Shown in pieces: positions 40,889 through 46,207 of a stretch of 47,752 nt of DNA (the first letter of the stretch is position 1; every line of letters begins with the position of its first letter). The notes below the pieces were generated by a model. That model saw only the letters and a program-made list of their open reading frames with translations. It was not told where the DNA came from and did no database searches. Origin of the DNA: Devosia sp. 66-14 (lineage in GTDB: Bacteria; Pseudomonadota; Alphaproteobacteria; Rhizobiales; Devosiaceae); NCBI GenBank assembly GCA_001899085.1, contig MKVB01000001.1:1084108-1131859 (forward strand), read 5' to 3'. A program made the translations under genes and the position numbers.

Positions 40889-42583
40889 TCAAGCCGCCTG
40901 CTCAACCCCTTCCCCCATCCGCTCCGGCGCCTTGCCGCCGGCCGAGCCGCCCAGCCACGAGGCCAGCGCCGCCAGCAGGTACAGCAGCAGCGAGATGGTG
41001 AAGGCGATCTTGATCCCCACCATGAACGGCGCCGCCAGGAGGTGCGGGAAGAACTCCTTGCCGGTAATCACCGCCTGCTGCGCCGCGCTCAGCGCATGCA
41101 GCGCCCCTGCCGGGATCAGCTCACCCATCGGATTGTAGCCGAGGAAGGCCGCGAACAGGCTCGCCACCGGCGGCGCTGCCGCGACCTGCGCCGCGATGTC
41201 GGGGCTCAGGCCTTCGGCGACGAGGTTGCTTTCCATGCTTTGCGGCAGGCTCAGCGACAACCCCAGAATCATCAGGGTGAAGAAGATGCCGATCGACAGG
41301 ACCTGCCCGGCATTCATCGCCGTGGCGCGGATACCCGCCGCCTGCCCGCGCTCGGCGGCCGGCACGGCATTCATCGTCTGGGTCGCGTTGGGCGCCGAGA
41401 ACAGCCCCGAGGCGACGCCGTTGAGGAACAGCAGCGTCGCAAAGATCGGGTAGTCGAAATCGGCGTTGAGCAGCATCAGCCCGAGGAAGGTCGCGGCACC
41501 CAGCAGCATGCCGAGGCTGGCGAAGGCCCGCTGGCCGAAGCGGTCGGCCAGCACGCCGGCCACCGGCCCCGAGATCAGCACGCCCAGCGTCAGAGGGATC
41601 ATGAAGATACCGGCCCAGAGCGGCGTCGATTCGAAACTGTAGCCGTGCAGCGGCAGCCAGATGCCCTGCAGCCAGATGATCAGCATGAACTGCAGCCCGC
41701 CGCGGCCGATCGAGGTCATCAGGTTGGCCGAGATGCCGGCGAAGAACGGTTTGATGCGGAACAGCTTCAGATCGATCATCGGCGGCTTCGCCCTGGTCTC
41801 GATGAAGAAGAAGAACGCGAGGAACACCAGCCCCAGCCCGAGTTCGGCCAGCACCTGCGGGCTGCCCCAGGCCATCAGGTCGTTATGGTAGGGCTGGATG
41901 CCGTCATTGACCCCGATCAGCAGCAGCACGAGGCCCACCGCGAACGTGATGTTGCCCCACCAGTCGATCTTCGAATGCCGGGTCGGCACATAGTCCTTCA
42001 TGCTGACATAGGCCCAGATGGTGCCCACCAGCCCGATCGGCACGTTGATCCAGAAGATCCAGCGCCAGTCGATATCGGCCAGCAGCCCGCCCAGAATCAG
42101 CCCGATGAACTGCCCGGCGATCGCCGCCATGGTGTTGATCCCCAGCGCCAGCCCGCGCTGCCGCGTCGGGAACACGTCGATCAGGATCGCCGTGGCAGTC
42201 GAGGTCAGCATCGCCCCGCCAATCCCCTGCACGATCCGTAGCCCGACGAGGTAATAGGCCGCCCCGTCGCCGGTCGGCATGAAGCTCAGGGCGATCGACG
42301 CCAGGGTGAAGATCAGGAAACCCAGGTTGTACACCTTGGCTCGCCCGAACATGTCGCCGAGCTTGCCGAAGGTCACCACCAGCACCGAGGTCACCACCAT
42401 GTAGCCCATGATGGTCCAGAGCAGGACATTGGTGTTGCCGGGGTCGAGCGGCTTCAGTCCGATGCCGCGGAAGATCGCCGGCAGGCTGATCAAGACGATC
42501 GAAGCGTTGATCGTGGCGGCCAGCATCCCCAGCGTGGTGTTGCTCAGCACCATCCATTTGTGGTTGTTCGGTTGCGAACTCAT
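40889..42583 (-). CDS. DHA2-type MFS transporter (EmrB/QacA-like)
   Basis: A 564-residue exporter with about 14 helices. Helix 1 starts NHKWMVLSNTTLGMLAATIN, where DHA2 transporters usually carry Asp (here INASIVLISLP). Loop 2-3 motif: GKLGDMFGRAKVYNLGF; helix 5 motif C-like segment: GLALGINTMAAIAGQFIGLILGGLL. The long periplasmic loop near the C terminus (MESNLVAEGLSPDIAAQVAA) is typical. It is divergent from a MarR gene whose operator lies between them, so regulated drug or metabolite export is likely. Starting point 42583 follows AAGGACG. Confidence 0.88.
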   Translation of the reverse strand: MSSQPNNHKWMVLSNTTLGMLAATINASIVLISLPAIFRGIGLKPLDPGNTNVLLWTIMGYMVVTSVLVVTFGKLGDMFGRAKVYNLGFLIFTLASIALSFMPTGDGAAYYLVGLRIVQGIGGAMLTSTATAILIDVFPTRQRGLALGINTMAAIAGQFIGLILGGLLADIDWRWIFWINVPIGLVGTIWAYVSMKDYVPTRHSKIDWWGNITFAVGLVLLLIGVNDGIQPYHNDLMAWGSPQVLAELGLGLVFLAFFFFIETRAKPPMIDLKLFRIKPFFAGISANLMTSIGRGGLQFMLIIWLQGIWLPLHGYSFESTPLWAGIFMIPLTLGVLISGPVAGVLADRFGQRAFASLGMLLGAATFLGLMLLNADFDYPIFATLLFLNGVASGLFSAPNATQTMNAVPAAERGQAAGIRATAMNAGQVLSIGIFFTLMILGLSLSLPQSMESNLVAEGLSPDIAAQVAAAPPVASLFAAFLGYNPMGELIPAGALHALSAAQQAVITGKEFFPHLLAAPFMVGIKIAFTISLLLYLLAALASWLGGSAGGKAPERMGEGVEQAA

Positions 42584-42650
42584 TCGTAGCGTCCTTGGGG
42601 CCCTGCCCCGGCGGCGCATGCCGACACCGGAGCTGTACAATTCGGCTTCG

Positions 42651-42670: not shown

Positions 42671-43126
42671 ATGGCAACAAGCGATCCTGCACACCTGATG
42701 CGCGATCTGACCCGGGACCTGCTGCTCACCGGGCGGCTGTGGCGCAAGATGGCGCGGGCCGTCGCCGCCAAGCATGGTGTGTCCGAAGCCGCTTCGGCGC
42801 CGCTGATCTGGATCGACCGGTTGGGCGAAAATGTCCGGCAGAACGCCCTCGCTGACGCCATCGGCATCGAAGGCGCCTCGCTGGTTCGCCTCATCGACGA
42901 GTTGCAGGCCTCCGGCCTCGTCACCCGCGAGCCCGACCCCACCGACCGCCGCGCCAATGTCGTGTCGCTCACCGTACGCGGCCGCGAGGTCGTCGCCGAG
43001 GTCAACGAAGACGTGATGGCGCTTCGCCGCCAGGTGTTCGCCGGGCTCGATCCCCACGACTTCGAAGCCGCCCTGCGCGTCTTCGCCGCCATCAAGACCG
43101 CGGCCGCCAAGGATGGGGCGGACTAG
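42671..43126 (+). CDS. MarR-family regulator
   Basis: A 151-residue winged-helix regulator with LMRDLTRDLLLTGRLWRKMARA, the central HTH AASAPLIWIDRLGENVRQNALADAIGIEGASLVRLIDELQASGLVTREPDPTDRRANVVSLTVRGREVV (recognition helix and wing DxxDRR) and a C-terminal dimerisation helix. It is divergent from the DHA2 exporter, the classical arrangement for a drug- or ligand-responsive repressor. The inducer is not known. Confidence 0.9.
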   Translation: MATSDPAHLMRDLTRDLLLTGRLWRKMARAVAAKHGVSEAASAPLIWIDRLGENVRQNALADAIGIEGASLVRLIDELQASGLVTREPDPTDRRANVVSLTVRGREVVAEVNEDVMALRRQVFAGLDPHDFEAALRVFAAIKTAAAKDGAD

Positions 43127-43186
43127 ATCTTTTCGCGTTTCGCCTGTTCGGCATCGCGGTGGCGGACGACGGACGACCCCGGCTTT

Positions 43187-43322
43187 CCCCTCATCCGGCG
43201 CTACGCGCCACCTTCTCCCCGACGGGGAGAAGAATACCGAGAGTGCAGCGCTCCCCCTCTTGTTCCTCTCCCCGTCGGGGAGAGGGTGGATCGGCCGAAG
43301 GCCGAGACGGGTGAGGGGTGGC
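43187..43322. repeat. Palindromic repeat, family A copy 3
   Basis: CCCCTCATCCGGCGCTACG and CCACCTTCTCCCCGACGGGG on the left, CTCTCCCCGTCGGGGAGAGG and GACGGGTGAGGGG on the right. It is the closest relative of copy 1, including the preceding GGCTTTCCCC. The remaining intergenic region leads into the promoter of the DAHP synthase leader. Confidence 0.75.
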
Positions 43323-43441
43323 GGGCACAGGCCGTCCCTACCACCGGGCTCAGCGCCTGCTCACTTTCACGGGATGATATCGGGGTTGAGGCAACGCACA
43401 GGCGCTACAGTAGTATTCGACGAACGGATGAACCGAGCCGC

Positions 43442-43469
43442 GTGACAAGTCAGTAAAGCTCGGCTACAA
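43442..43469 (+). promoter_or_regulatory. Probable promoter of the DAHP synthase leader
   Basis: GTGACA (43442-43447) and TACAAC (43464-43469) are 16 bp apart. The expected transcription start, near 43476-43478, coincides with the ATG of the leader peptide, so the peptide would be translated from a leaderless or nearly leaderless mRNA. Confidence 0.45.
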
Positions 43470-43477
43470 CCCCGGCC

Positions 43478-43552
43478 ATGAACCTTCGCGCCGCCTATTC
43501 GTATTGGTATTTTACCACCGGAAGCCGCTGGCAGCCGAAGGGGCGCGTTTGA
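43478..43552 (+). CDS. Aromatic-rich leader peptide of the DAHP synthase gene
   Basis: A 24-codon frame with ATG at 43478 and TGA at 43550-43552. Residues 1-18 are MNLRAAYSYWYFTTGSRW: Tyr at 7, 9 and 11, Trp at 10 and 18, Phe at 12. Such clustering of all three aromatic amino acids in a short peptide just before a terminator and a DAHP synthase gene is the signature of transcription attenuation. When aromatic tRNAs are charged, translation is fast and the terminator at 43581 should form; stalling on the YSYWYF codons should prevent it. CTGGCAGC (43528-43535) can pair with the terminator arm GCCGCCAG (43584-43591) with one mismatch, offering an antiterminator. It is too short to be found by ordinary gene prediction. 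Confidence 0.7.
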   Translation: MNLRAAYSYWYFTTGSRWQPKGRV

Positions 43553-43580
43553 CGTAAAACACCAAACCGAAAATACCCAA

Positions 43581-43610
43581 AAAGCCGCCAGACCACCTGG
43601 CGGCTTTTTT
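43581..43610 (+). terminator. Attenuator terminator before the DAHP synthase gene
   Basis: AAAGCCGCCAG (43581-43591) and CTGGCGGCTTT (43597-43607) form an 11-bp stem with a 5-nt loop, followed by a T-run to 43610. It sits between the leader peptide stop and the DAHP synthase start at 43645. Confidence 0.85.
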
Positions 43611-43644
43611 GTCGCCGGTGCCCAGAACCCGAGGAACCGACGAA

Positions 43645-44721
43645 ATGCTGAAATCCACTGACGACCTGCGCATCAAACAGATCCGCGAACTCCGAACCCC
43701 CGAAGAGGTGATCCGCGAGTTCCCGCGCACCGATGCGGCGACCCGCACCGTGATCAGCTCACGCCACGCGCTGCACAATATCCTGCACGGCAGCGACGAC
43801 CGCCTCGCCGTCGTGGTGGGCCCCTGCTCCATCCACGACCCCAAGGCCGCACTCGACTACGCCCGCCGCCTCGCCCCGGTCCGTGAGCGCCTTGCCGGCA
43901 GCCTCGAGATCGTCATGCGCGTCTATTTCGAAAAGCCCCGGACCACCGTGGGCTGGAAGGGCCTGATCAACGACCCCAATCTCGATGGCAGCTTCGACAT
44001 CGACAATGGCCTGCGGCTCGCCCGCTCGCTGCTGCTCGAGATCAACAATCTCGGCCTGCCCGCCGGTTCCGAATTCCTCGATATGACCACCCCGCAATAT
44101 TTTGCAGATCTGATTTCCTGGGGCGCCATCGGCGCGCGCACCACCGAGAGCCAGGTGCACCGCGAGCTGGCCTCGGGGTTGAGCTGCCCGGTCGGCTTCA
44201 AGAACGGCACCGACGGCAATGTCCGCATCGCGCTGGACGCAGTGAAATCGGCGAGCCAGCCGCACCATTTCCTCGCCGTGACCAAATCCGGCCACTCCGC
44301 CATCGCGGCCACCACCGGCAATGACGATTGCCACATCATCCTCCGCGGCGGCAGCAAGGCGACCAACTACGACGCCCAGAGCGTCGATGCCGCCTGCAAG
44401 GAAGCCGAAAAGTCCGGCATCCGCCCGGCGGTGATGATCGACGCCAGCCACGCCAACTCATCGAAAAAGCCCGAGAACCAGCCGATGGTGCTGGCCGAAG
44501 TCGGCGCCCAGATCGCCGCCGGAGACCGGCGGATCATCGGCGTCATGGCAGAATCCAACCTCGTTGCCGGCCGCCAGGACCTGGTGCCCGGCAAGGAGCT
44601 GGTCTACGGCCAGTCGATCACCGACGGCTGCATCGACTGGGACTCGACGGTCGAAGTGCTGGAGAAGCTGGCCGAAGCGGTGGAAGAACGCCGCCGGGTG
44701 ACGGGGCAGTTGGTGGCGTAG
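43645..44721 (+). CDS. aroG: 3-deoxy-7-phosphoheptulonate (DAHP) synthase, type I
   Basis: A 358-residue type I (AroFGH) DAHP synthase that condenses phosphoenolpyruvate and erythrose 4-phosphate, the first step of the shikimate pathway to Phe, Tyr and Trp. Motifs: VVVGPCSIHDPKAALDYARR, EKPRTTVGWKGLINDPNLDGSFDI, SEFLDMTTPQYFADLISWGAIGARTTESQVHR, GFKNGTDGN, RGGSKATNYDA and MIDASHANSSKKPENQP; GPCSIHD and KNGTDGN are active-site segments. The N-terminal part probably carries the allosteric site, but which amino acid inhibits is not readable. The ATG has GAGGA upstream and lies after the attenuator. Confidence 0.96.
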   Translation: MLKSTDDLRIKQIRELRTPEEVIREFPRTDAATRTVISSRHALHNILHGSDDRLAVVVGPCSIHDPKAALDYARRLAPVRERLAGSLEIVMRVYFEKPRTTVGWKGLINDPNLDGSFDIDNGLRLARSLLLEINNLGLPAGSEFLDMTTPQYFADLISWGAIGARTTESQVHRELASGLSCPVGFKNGTDGNVRIALDAVKSASQPHHFLAVTKSGHSAIAATTGNDDCHIILRGGSKATNYDAQSVDAACKEAEKSGIRPAVMIDASHANSSKKPENQPMVLAEVGAQIAAGDRRIIGVMAESNLVAGRQDLVPGKELVYGQSITDGCIDWDSTVEVLEKLAEAVEERRRVTGQLVA

Positions 44722-44734
44722 GTTTACTGAAACA

Positions 44735-44858
44735 GACGGCCCCCTCCCATCCTCCCCCATGAAGGGGGAGGTGCCCTGCCGGTTCGCTTGGCACAATCGA
44801 AGACAGAGCCTCGACTCTTCACCTCCCCCTTCATGGGGGAGGCCGGGAGGGGGCCGTC
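44735..44858. repeat. Palindromic repeat, family B copy 2
   Basis: GACGGCCCCCTCCC at the left and GGGAGGGGGCCGTC at the right, with inner TGAAGGGGGAGG opposite CCTCCCCCTTCA. The segment GGCACAATCGAAGACAGAGC is almost the same as in copy 1 at 12235-12436, and both are preceded by a TACTGAA-CA sequence. Confidence 0.75.
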
Positions 44859-44934
44859 TCTATCAGTAACACTCAACCAACCCTCTCCCCCACCCCGCCT
44901 TGACCGCGCCACGGCGATAGCGTCTTCTTCCGGC

Positions 44935-45504
44935 ATGCAAATCCCGCCGCAATTGATGACGCTTCCCAACCAGCTGACCATCGGCCGCATCCTCGCGATT
45001 CCGGTGATCTGCCTGTTCCTCGTTTCCGGCTGGGAATGGCTGCGCTGGATCGCGCTGCTGCTCTATATCGCCGCCGCCGTCACCGACTGGCTCGATGGGT
45101 TCCTCGCCCGCCGGATGAACCTGAACTCGGCGCTCGGCAAGATGCTCGATCCGATCGCCGATAAGCTGCTGGTCGGCGCGCTGCTCATCACCTTCGCCTG
45201 GACCCGCGATCTAACCGGCTGGGACCTGATCCCGGCCATCGCGATCATGCTGCGCGAGATCTTCGTTTCGGGCCTGCGCGAGTATCTGGGCAACCGCTCG
45301 ATCAGCGTACCGGTCACCTTTCTCGCCAAGTGGAAGACCACCGTGCAACTCGTGGCGCTCGGCCTGATCATCGCCGCGCCGATGCTGCTCGGGCTCGGCT
45401 TCATCAGCCATGTGGTCCTGTGGATCGCCGGTGGCCTCACCGTCTGGACCGGCTGGGAATATCTCCGTTCCACCTGGCCGCATCTGTCGGGACCTGAACT
45501 ATGA
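44935..45504 (+). CDS. pgsA: CDP-diacylglycerol-glycerol-3-phosphate 3-phosphatidyltransferase
   Basis: A 189-residue membrane enzyme that makes phosphatidylglycerophosphate from CDP-diacylglycerol and glycerol 3-phosphate, the committed step to phosphatidylglycerol and cardiolipin. It opens with TLPNQLTIGRILAIPVICLFL, and the CDP-alcohol phosphotransferase motif is complete in DWLDGFLARRMNLNSALGKMLDPIADK, with all conserved Asp and Gly. Further segments are membrane helices. The start at 44935 is chosen; Met at 44956 is an alternative. The stop overlaps moaD by ATGA. In related genomes uvrC-pgsA-moaD-moaE form one cluster. Confidence 0.95.
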   Translation: MQIPPQLMTLPNQLTIGRILAIPVICLFLVSGWEWLRWIALLLYIAAAVTDWLDGFLARRMNLNSALGKMLDPIADKLLVGALLITFAWTRDLTGWDLIPAIAIMLREIFVSGLREYLGNRSISVPVTFLAKWKTTVQLVALGLIIAAPMLLGLGFISHVVLWIAGGLTVWTGWEYLRSTWPHLSGPEL

Positions 45505-45752
45505 AGATCCGCTATTTCGCCTGGCTCCGCGAGCGTCTCAACCGCGGTGAGGAAGATGTGTCTCCGCCCGCCGAGGTGGTGACCGTCGGCGACCTGATTC
45601 AGTGGCTGAGAGATCGCGACGAAGCCGCTGACCTGGCAATGCAGAAGCCCAGTCTGATCAAGGCGGCGCTCGACACCGAAATCGTCCCGCACTCGACTCC
45701 GATCGCCAATGCCAAGGTCATTGCCCTGTTCCCGCCGATGACCGGCGGCTGA
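45501..45752 (+). CDS. moaD: Molybdopterin synthase small subunit
   Basis: An 83-residue ubiquitin-fold protein that carries sulfur as a C-terminal thiocarboxylate for molybdopterin synthesis. MKIRYFAWLRERL begins the fold, TVGDLIQWLRDRDEAADL forms the helix, and it ends in ALFPPMTGG with the essential terminal Gly-Gly. It overlaps pgsA and is 2 bp before moaE, so the three genes are probably translated together. Confidence 0.95.
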   Translation: MKIRYFAWLRERLNRGEEDVSPPAEVVTVGDLIQWLRDRDEAADLAMQKPSLIKAALDTEIVPHSTPIANAKVIALFPPMTGG

Positions 45753-45754
45753 CC

Positions 45755-46207
45755 ATGTCGGTCCGCCTGCAGGAGGCGTCCTTCGATCCCGGCGCCGAAA
45801 CCAACGCCTTCCTCGCCGCGTCGGCCGGCGCCGGCGCTGCGGTCACCTTTACCGGCCTCGTCCGCTCGCGCCCCGACGATCCGGTCAGCACCCTGACGCT
45901 CGAAAGCTATCCCGAGCTCGCCGAAACCCAGATCGGCAAGGCCATCGCTGAGGCGGTGGTACGCTTCGGGCTGATCAAGGCCTCGGTGATCCATCGCCAT
46001 GGCCGCCTCGCCGTGGGCGAGCCGATCGTTCAGGTGATGACCCTGGCCCCCCACCGGCAGGCCGCCTTCGACGGCGCCTCCTTCCTGATGGATTACCTCA
46101 AAACCGACGCCCCCTTCTGGAAGAAGGAATCGACCCCTGAGGGGGAGCGCTGGGTGGAGGCCAAGCCCGCAGACGACGACGCCCGCGCCAAATGGAACAA
46201 GCCATGA
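45755..46207 (+). CDS. moaE: Molybdopterin synthase large subunit
   Basis: A 150-residue protein that together with MoaD inserts two sulfurs into precursor Z. Identified by GAAVTFTGLVRSRPDDPVSTLTLESYPELAETQI, VRFGLIKASVIHRHGRLAVGEPIVQVM and the active-site segment YLKTDAPFWKKES with the two lysines. Its length matches the family. The stop overlaps the start of the VOC gene by ATGA. Confidence 0.96.
   Translation: MSVRLQEASFDPGAETNAFLAASAGAGAAVTFTGLVRSRPDDPVSTLTLESYPELAETQIGKAIAEAVVRFGLIKASVIHRHGRLAVGEPIVQVMTLAPHRQAAFDGASFLMDYLKTDAPFWKKESTPEGERWVEAKPADDDARAKWNKP

Follow-up and report, generated by a model that had tools for sequence, protein, structure and literature searches.

A candidate leaderless attenuator with Phe, Tyr and Trp codons ahead of aroG in Devosia and related bacteria

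Introduction

Through DAHP synthase, carbon is committed to the shikimate pathway; the textbook regulation of this enzyme consists of feedback inhibition and, in Escherichia coli, of repression by TyrR and TrpR. Multi-amino-acid leader peptides are known as well, e.g., those of ilv and thr. The regulation of the E. coli DAHP synthases is covered in the accessible text of PMC5343134. In Corynebacterium, the aroR leader precedes aroF, and the stalling of the ribosome raises transcription (as given in the available parts of PMC11802643 and PMC4046766). The AroR peptide of C. glutamicum contains Phe-Tyr-Phe; according to the same portion of PMC11802643, Phe limitation induces the operon and the supply of Tyr has no effect. 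The presence of a Tyr codon without a Tyr effect means that codon content alone is no proof of sensing. Since an attenuator of a DAHP synthase gene is already known from aroR-aroF, the kind of regulation considered below is known too.

The window analysed here is a stretch of 47,752 nucleotides from Devosia sp. 66-14, in which an aromatic leader frame and a terminator precede the type I DAHP synthase gene aroG. As in C. glutamicum, an aromatic-codon leader peptide lies ahead of a DAHP synthase gene; compared by description, the aroR leader differs in being actinobacterial and Phe-responsive, with no Trp named in the text available. The uORFC-13-1 found before aroF in Acholeplasma likewise combines an upstream frame with Phe codon(s), a terminator and a DAHP synthase gene, but it has a ribosome binding site, belongs to another phylum, is represented by 24 sequences and is described in the accessible text with Phe as the only named residue (PMC8632094). 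In Vibrio, attenuation is likewise predicted for a type I DAHP synthase operon, aroAI-alpha-Y>tyrA, the leader peptides of the predicted attenuators not being stated in the part of the source available (PMC1173090, Table 7). The predicted layout resembles that of trpL/rnTrpL of Sinorhizobium, also an alphaproteobacterium, where a leaderless leader ORF and a terminator stand ahead of a biosynthetic gene (PMC10117765, PMC7298713, available parts); trpL carries Trp codons only and controls trpE, whereas the Devosia leader has a mixed Tyr/Trp/Phe core before aroG and lacks the consecutive Trp codons before trpE that mark the trpL type.

The original prediction regarded an aromatic-mix leader for the first shikimate step as little described. 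In the literature searched this holds for the alphaproteobacteria, for which none was found; it does not hold in general, as a DAHP synthase leader peptide has been published for Corynebacterium. In the literature searched, as far as its texts were accessible, no leader before aroG is reported for alphaproteobacteria, Burkholderiales or Xanthomonadales, a mention in Vitreschak 2004 or Neshat 2014 being possible. The main texts of PMC5688073 and PMC4035088, both on sRNAs of Burkholderia, make no mention of aroG, and the supplement of PMC5688073 tabulates 82 short 5′UTR transcripts. Neither this family nor its breadth, nor its presumably leaderless form with three residues, was met with in the literature searched.

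The aroG Locus of Devosia sp. 66-14

The aroG gene begins with the ATG at 43645. In the profile search its product scores 533 bits with TIGR00034 (cut-off 173), has a PF00793 domain match, and reaches 560 with the narrower AroG model NF006723, slightly below the cut-off of 568. The closest named record found is the AroG of Devosia insulae, with 97% identity. The aroG of the window is the single type I DAHP synthase gene of its genome, which also encodes a class II enzyme elsewhere. The leader frame, the terminator and the DAHP synthase gene are arranged as the original prediction described them, and the promoter-like pair lies where it had been placed. The elements of the locus are as follows.

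43442..43470, + strand: promoter, a conserved pair of -35 GTGACA (43442-43447) and -10 TACAAC (43465-43470) separated by 17 nt
43478..43478, + strand: predicted transcript start, on the leader ATG or adjoining it, from the promoter position and the lack of an SD-like motif
43478..43552, + strand: leader ORF MNLRAAYSYWYFTTGSRWQPKGRV, 24 codons, from the reading frame; an aromatic leader frame is found in 101/103 alphaproteobacterial loci
43483..43495, + strand: putative strand 1 (CCTTCGCGCCGCC), partner of strand 2 (1:2 duplex, -19.5 kcal/mol)
43496..43513, + strand: presumptive sensor codons Tyr-Ser-Tyr-Trp-Tyr-Phe (TAT TCG TAT TGG TAT TTT), from the alphaproteobacterial leader alignment
43524..43547, + strand: putative strand 2 with the antiterminator segment CTGGCAGC (43528-43535), partner of strand 3 (2:3 duplex, -17.7 kcal/mol)
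43579..43591, + strand: strand 3, the 5′ terminator arm AAAAAGCCGCCAG, from hairpin scan and folding
43597..43610, + strand: strand 4 with the U-tract CTGGCGGCTTTTTT, from hairpin scan and folding
43645..44721, + strand: aroG, type I (AroFGH) DAHP synthase, the proposed regulated gene (TIGR00034, PF00793)

The surroundings contain a MarR-family regulator gene upstream of the leader (42671-43126), divergent from an MFS transporter gene (40889-42640, - strand), and, on the 3′ side of aroG (44788-46204), genes for a CDP-alcohol phosphatidyltransferase, a ThiS-family protein and MoaE. Two long palindromic repeats, at 43208-43289 and 44724-44869, bracket aroG together with its leader; their arms measure 27 nt (93% complementary) and 50 nt (92% complementary). 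Elsewhere in the same genome, the likely ATG of trpE (L172, about 1417) overlaps the stop codon of the upstream reading frame, which leaves no room for a trp attenuator. At a threshold of 4 aromatic residues in 7, no aromatic leader is found ahead of the trpE, prephenate dehydratase and class II DAHP synthase genes of this genome.

Distribution of the Leader

For the comparison, 103 alphaproteobacterial loci were pooled from sets of 30, 13 and 60; near-duplicates remain among them, and the non-redundant set numbers 46. Loci L032-L035, copies of L005, L013, L017 and L014, were left out of the analysis, as was L108 as spurious. An ORF scan detects an ATG-initiated aromatic leader in 101/103 loci, each of the 101 ending in a stop codon 82-111 nt ahead of aroG. 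Locus L168, in which the scan gives no leader, matches the RNA model (E 8e-16) and has the short sensor MNAARTLSARFYPRSIAGGIRGA, while L166 starts inside the element at a contig end, its first 18 nt matching the end of the model. This RNA model (R1) was trained on 53 alphaproteobacterial leaders only.

In 61 related genomes, training rows included, the model gives 31 strong full-length matches, each directly before one of 31 type I genes; the 31 genomes lacking such a gene have no strong match. Strong and weak matches are separated by a gap in E-value from 4e-14 to 4e-4, and no further strong leader copies were found in the 61 genomes with stricter filters and among the weak matches listed. 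Two type I DAHP synthase genes occur in one genome, G026 (L017 on C16; C10:3033-4280), each with a leader (E 2e-18 and 6e-21). Ten weak matches were read, of which one is trpL-like and the rest resemble gene ends or coding sequence or have no clear reading. The trpL-like leader, MIKSLNIAVWWWAR of genome G058 (L192 176-1001; E 0.009), has a GCCGCC-type terminator and precedes an ORF that encodes a PF04715 anthranilate synthase domain (E 1.5e-7); the same genome also has the aroG leader.

Outside the alphaproteobacterial list, this alpha-trained model finds 40 of 63 loci with E<=1e-10; they belong to Xanthomonas, Dyella, Bordetella, Burkholderia, Cupriavidus, Janthinobacterium and others. These 63 loci, drawn from a set of 80, are 62 not named as alphaproteobacteria and one of Rhodopila (L061), an alphaproteobacterium outside the list, and their E-values are rough. 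The Rhodopila leader matches with E 2e-13 and has 3 aromatic residues of 7 in its core. The Vibrionaceae loci L100 and L108 show no match up to E 1. The original prediction had staked itself on conservation in related genomes, and the frame, the terminator, the antiterminator segment and the distance from promoter to ATG are indeed kept in Hyphomicrobiales and beyond.

The type I enzyme is itself patchy, being present in 59/397 sampled genomes of the order and in 8/289 of the class sample, the genome of the window included in both. In a quick-method tree built from 106 AroG proteins, 105 of them labelled (L078, with 53 nt upstream, is unlabelled), the presence of the leader requires 5 changes versus 18.5 for shuffled labels, and 0/500 shuffles are as low; L080 counts as 'none' on the basis of its model E of 0.05, with an ORF and a hairpin present. 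So few changes mean that leader and enzyme travel together. The 52 AroG proteins of Xanthomonadales and alphaproteobacteria, each encoded behind a leader, form one branch with an SH-aLRT of 97. A transfer of the leader-aroG unit between classes would fit this picture. Two type I genes have one in-frame stop (L028, TGA in G029; L171, TAG in G456), and the leader is present in both.

Promoter and Predicted Leaderless Layout

In the window, 7 nt separate the end of the -10 element from the leader ATG at 43478. A TGACA-type -35 with a -10 starting with TA is found in 94/101 alphaproteobacterial leaders, with a spacing of 17 nt in 90 of these 94; in 86 of the 94, 6-8 nt lie between the end of the -10 and the ATG. 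By a stricter scan, the promoter stands 6-8 nt before the ATG in 87/100 leaders, compared with 8/20000 shuffles and 0/2566 other ATGs of the same loci; locus L018, at a contig edge, is left out of this control and of the folding counts below. A generic sigma-70 scan of 43120-43700 reports no promoter. None of the 101 leaders has an SD-like motif, L018 having just 10 nt upstream. The constancy of the promoter distance in 87/100 leaders suggests that a leaderless layout is conserved, with transcription presumably starting at or beside the leader ATG. By eye, a GCTATCA-like -10 lies at a similar distance in Xanthomonadales, and a TTATAAA element lies farther upstream in Burkholderiales, whose layout suggests a leader with a short 5′ UTR.

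The Aromatic Core of the Leader Peptide

The density of aromatic residues is far from that of chance sequences. Shuffling the 200 nt ahead of the window's aroG yields 5 or more aromatic residues out of 7 close to an ATG in 0/2000 cases, and among all loci with 200 nt upstream such a core is present in 121/162, versus 7/3240 shuffles and 0/2060 random windows of the same loci. The 101 alphaproteobacterial leaders have 6 aromatic residues per 7 in 51 cases, 5 in 38, 4 in 10 and 3 in 2, so that a low density (3 or 4) is seen in 12. The mixed content that the original prediction noticed in one leader holds for most alphaproteobacteria: counted over the core and up to three following residues, Phe, Tyr and Trp are all present in 94/100 alphaproteobacterial and 8/8 Xanthomonadales cores, and in 15/33 beta/other cores, the remaining 18 having Phe and Tyr only. 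In a minor subtype, the sensor is shortened and follows an Arg (RFYWYR, RFYRPY, RFYSYR, RFYPRS; L029, L061, L162, L163, L164, L168), and in 4 of these 6 loci the stretch is without Trp (RFYSYR in L162 and L164, RFYPRS in L168, RFYRPY in L061).

In the 53 aligned alphaproteobacterial leaders, the columns of the last three sensor codons contain Trp in 45, Tyr in 45 and Phe in 49, and the codon of the aligned Phe is TTT in 47/49. Over 100 alphaproteobacterial cores Phe is encoded by 159 TTT and 46 TTC, as opposed to 24 TTT and 252 TTC in the first 900 nt of 42 aroG genes of these loci, tallies which include related sequences. The use of such a poor codon in the sensor would sharpen the stalling of the ribosome.

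Outside the genus of the window, leader peptides of different classes share a tail resembling SYPxPLAExG.RSI. In 16/18 loci of that genus (L018 being counted by its peptide) the tail is frame-shifted with its nucleotides retained, as in CTGGCAGCCGGAGGGG, which reads SRWQPEG instead of PLAAGG; the other frame is kept in L012 and L019. The tail peptide thus seems to be expendable as long as the RNA is kept.

Terminator and Alternative Pairings

The terminator of the window has the arms GCCGCCAG (43584-43591) and CTGGCGGC (43597-43604), six T at 43605-43610 and an A-run at 43579-43583, with a hairpin energy of -19.2 kcal/mol. The terminator scan reports this hairpin solely on the - strand, with the A/T flanks counted as stem. 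The RNA 43470-43650 is more stable than 200/200 shuffles (z -3.1). A terminator-like hairpin between leader and aroG is found in 84/85 rows, and in 143/143 with a looser T-tract, the spurious L108 included. Between core and terminator, the scanned rows contain a TGGCGG-type or related segment that can pair with the terminator arm, with varying strength. In the window, CTGGCAGC pairs with the terminator arm GCCGCCAG, as the original prediction proposed for its antiterminator, with one A.C mismatch that went unmentioned there.

Column-wise folding of the 53 aligned leaders yields the terminator only, with 6 pairs, one of which shows two-sided changes in 7 sequences; folding restricted to parts recovers 2:3 as three pairs at -1.2 kcal/mol and a 1:2 helix not at all. 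As the column-based approach gave little beyond the terminator, the duplex energies of cognate and foreign strands were compared instead. Cognate pairing is better for 1:2 in 57/77 (p 6e-6) and for 2:3 in 55/77 (p 5e-5), versus 33/77 for the control pairing 1:3 (p 0.55). The lineages seem to use different pairing registers.

The effect of the ribosome was modelled by masking its footprint and folding the RNA as far as strand 3, the stall positions being averaged over the core. In this model, the mean sequestration of strand 3 in 100 alphaproteobacterial leaders is 0.63 with a stalled ribosome, 0.23 with a ribosome at the stop codon and 0.39 without a ribosome, and it is greater in the stalled state than at the stop in 92/100. 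The 46 non-redundant leaders give 0.59 and 0.26 for the stalled and stop states (40/46 higher when stalled), versus 0.35 and 0.34 with shuffled upstream sequence (96/184; p 3e-11). The effect is weaker in 41 other (beta/gamma) leaders, with 0.53 stalled, 0.34 at the stop and 0.30 without a ribosome (30/41), and it fails in L060 (0.67 stalled, 0.76 at the stop). The leader of the window has modelled values of 0.62 stalled, 0.25 at the stop and 0.61 without a ribosome, the last compared with an alphaproteobacterial mean of 0.39, so that its untranslated RNA would not clearly terminate.

Proposed Mechanism and Alternative Explanations

The leader combines an ORF rich in codons for the end products of the pathway, an intrinsic terminator, and exclusive 1:2 and 2:3 pairings with suitably placed stall codons; the exclusive pairing is hardly visible as column covariation. 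Judged by the conservation, the promoter position, the fit of the alternative pairings and their thermodynamic behaviour, it is very probably a ribosome-mediated transcription attenuator of aroG. Transcription would begin at the leader ATG or adjacent to it, and the leaderless mRNA would be translated while it emerges. With charged Phe-, Tyr- and Trp-tRNAs at hand, the ribosome would pass the Tyr-Trp-Tyr-Phe codons and reach the stop codon, where it would cover strand 2, allowing the 3:4 terminator to form and switching aroG off. When the charged tRNAs run low, the ribosome would stall on the core and cover strand 1, located immediately upstream; strand 2, being freed, would pair with strand 3, and aroG would be transcribed in the absence of the terminator. 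The transcript start, the stalling and the response to each amino acid are inferred. The same arrangement in many related bacteria makes it very probable that aroG is switched on at amino-acid shortage.

That the attenuator reads all three aromatic amino acids is a separate matter and somewhat more probable than not. An attenuator of the same build could instead be controlled by one residue, e.g., Phe, with the other aromatic codons as passengers. Such a single-residue control has a precedent in the Phe-Tyr-Phe of C. glutamicum AroR, which is induced through Phe and unaffected by Tyr (PMC11802643, accessible text), and it agrees with Phe being the most constant core column (49/53, TTT in 47/49) and with the absence of Trp from 6/100 alphaproteobacterial and 18/33 beta/other cores. 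However, the Trp and Tyr columns of the alphaproteobacteria are almost as constant (45/53 each), and in the model strand 3 is sequestered by stall positions averaged over the whole core, which leaves control by one residue a rather unlikely version of the attenuator. A nascent peptide that stalls the ribosome when a free aromatic amino acid acts as its ligand, and not because charged tRNA is short, would be of the type known from TnaC. The recurrence of the SYPxPLAExG.RSI-like tail across classes would suit it, but the frameshift that spares the DNA in 16/18 loci of the genus makes the tail peptide seem dispensable, and strand 2 explains the conservation; an arrest peptide is therefore very unlikely.

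The strong terminator and the empty generic promoter scan would also be expected of an unregulated, constitutive terminator beside an incidental ORF, an explanation that is exceedingly improbable in view of a conserved promoter aimed at the leader ATG, an aromatic core and fitting alternative pairings. Just as hard to credit is a riboswitch or protein-binding leader sensing an aromatic metabolite directly. The motif TTTTAGC in the leader core does show a constancy of primary sequence that such a sensor would share, but the conservation otherwise follows codons, and no conserved aptamer-like fold is present. No Rfam 15 family reaches its gathering score in the window or in 16 relatives; the best resemblance, over the same span, is to Phe_leader (RF01859), with 35.4 bits and a gathering score of 55. 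A further function might be added to the attenuator. The terminated leaderless RNA of about 130 nt and the aromatic peptide could both be made constantly and act in trans, as has been reported for rnTrpL and peTrpL of Sinorhizobium. The constancy of TTTTAGC beyond the needs of its codons would fit such an activity, which is nevertheless unlikely for the aroG leader. If it were true, one short RNA would report the joint state of Phe, Tyr and Trp to genes besides aroG.

Biological Significance

The leader of aroG represents regulation of a familiar type at an important step. In alphaproteobacteria, Xanthomonadales and Burkholderiales, a conserved RNA family appears to put the first step of the shikimate pathway under an attenuator that pools the aromatic amino acids. 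How one leader may integrate signals from three amino acids could be tested simply in this family. Its frame-shifted tails would show, in nature, an attenuator that outlived a frameshift, and its many apparently leaderless leader ORFs would serve studies of leaderless translation.
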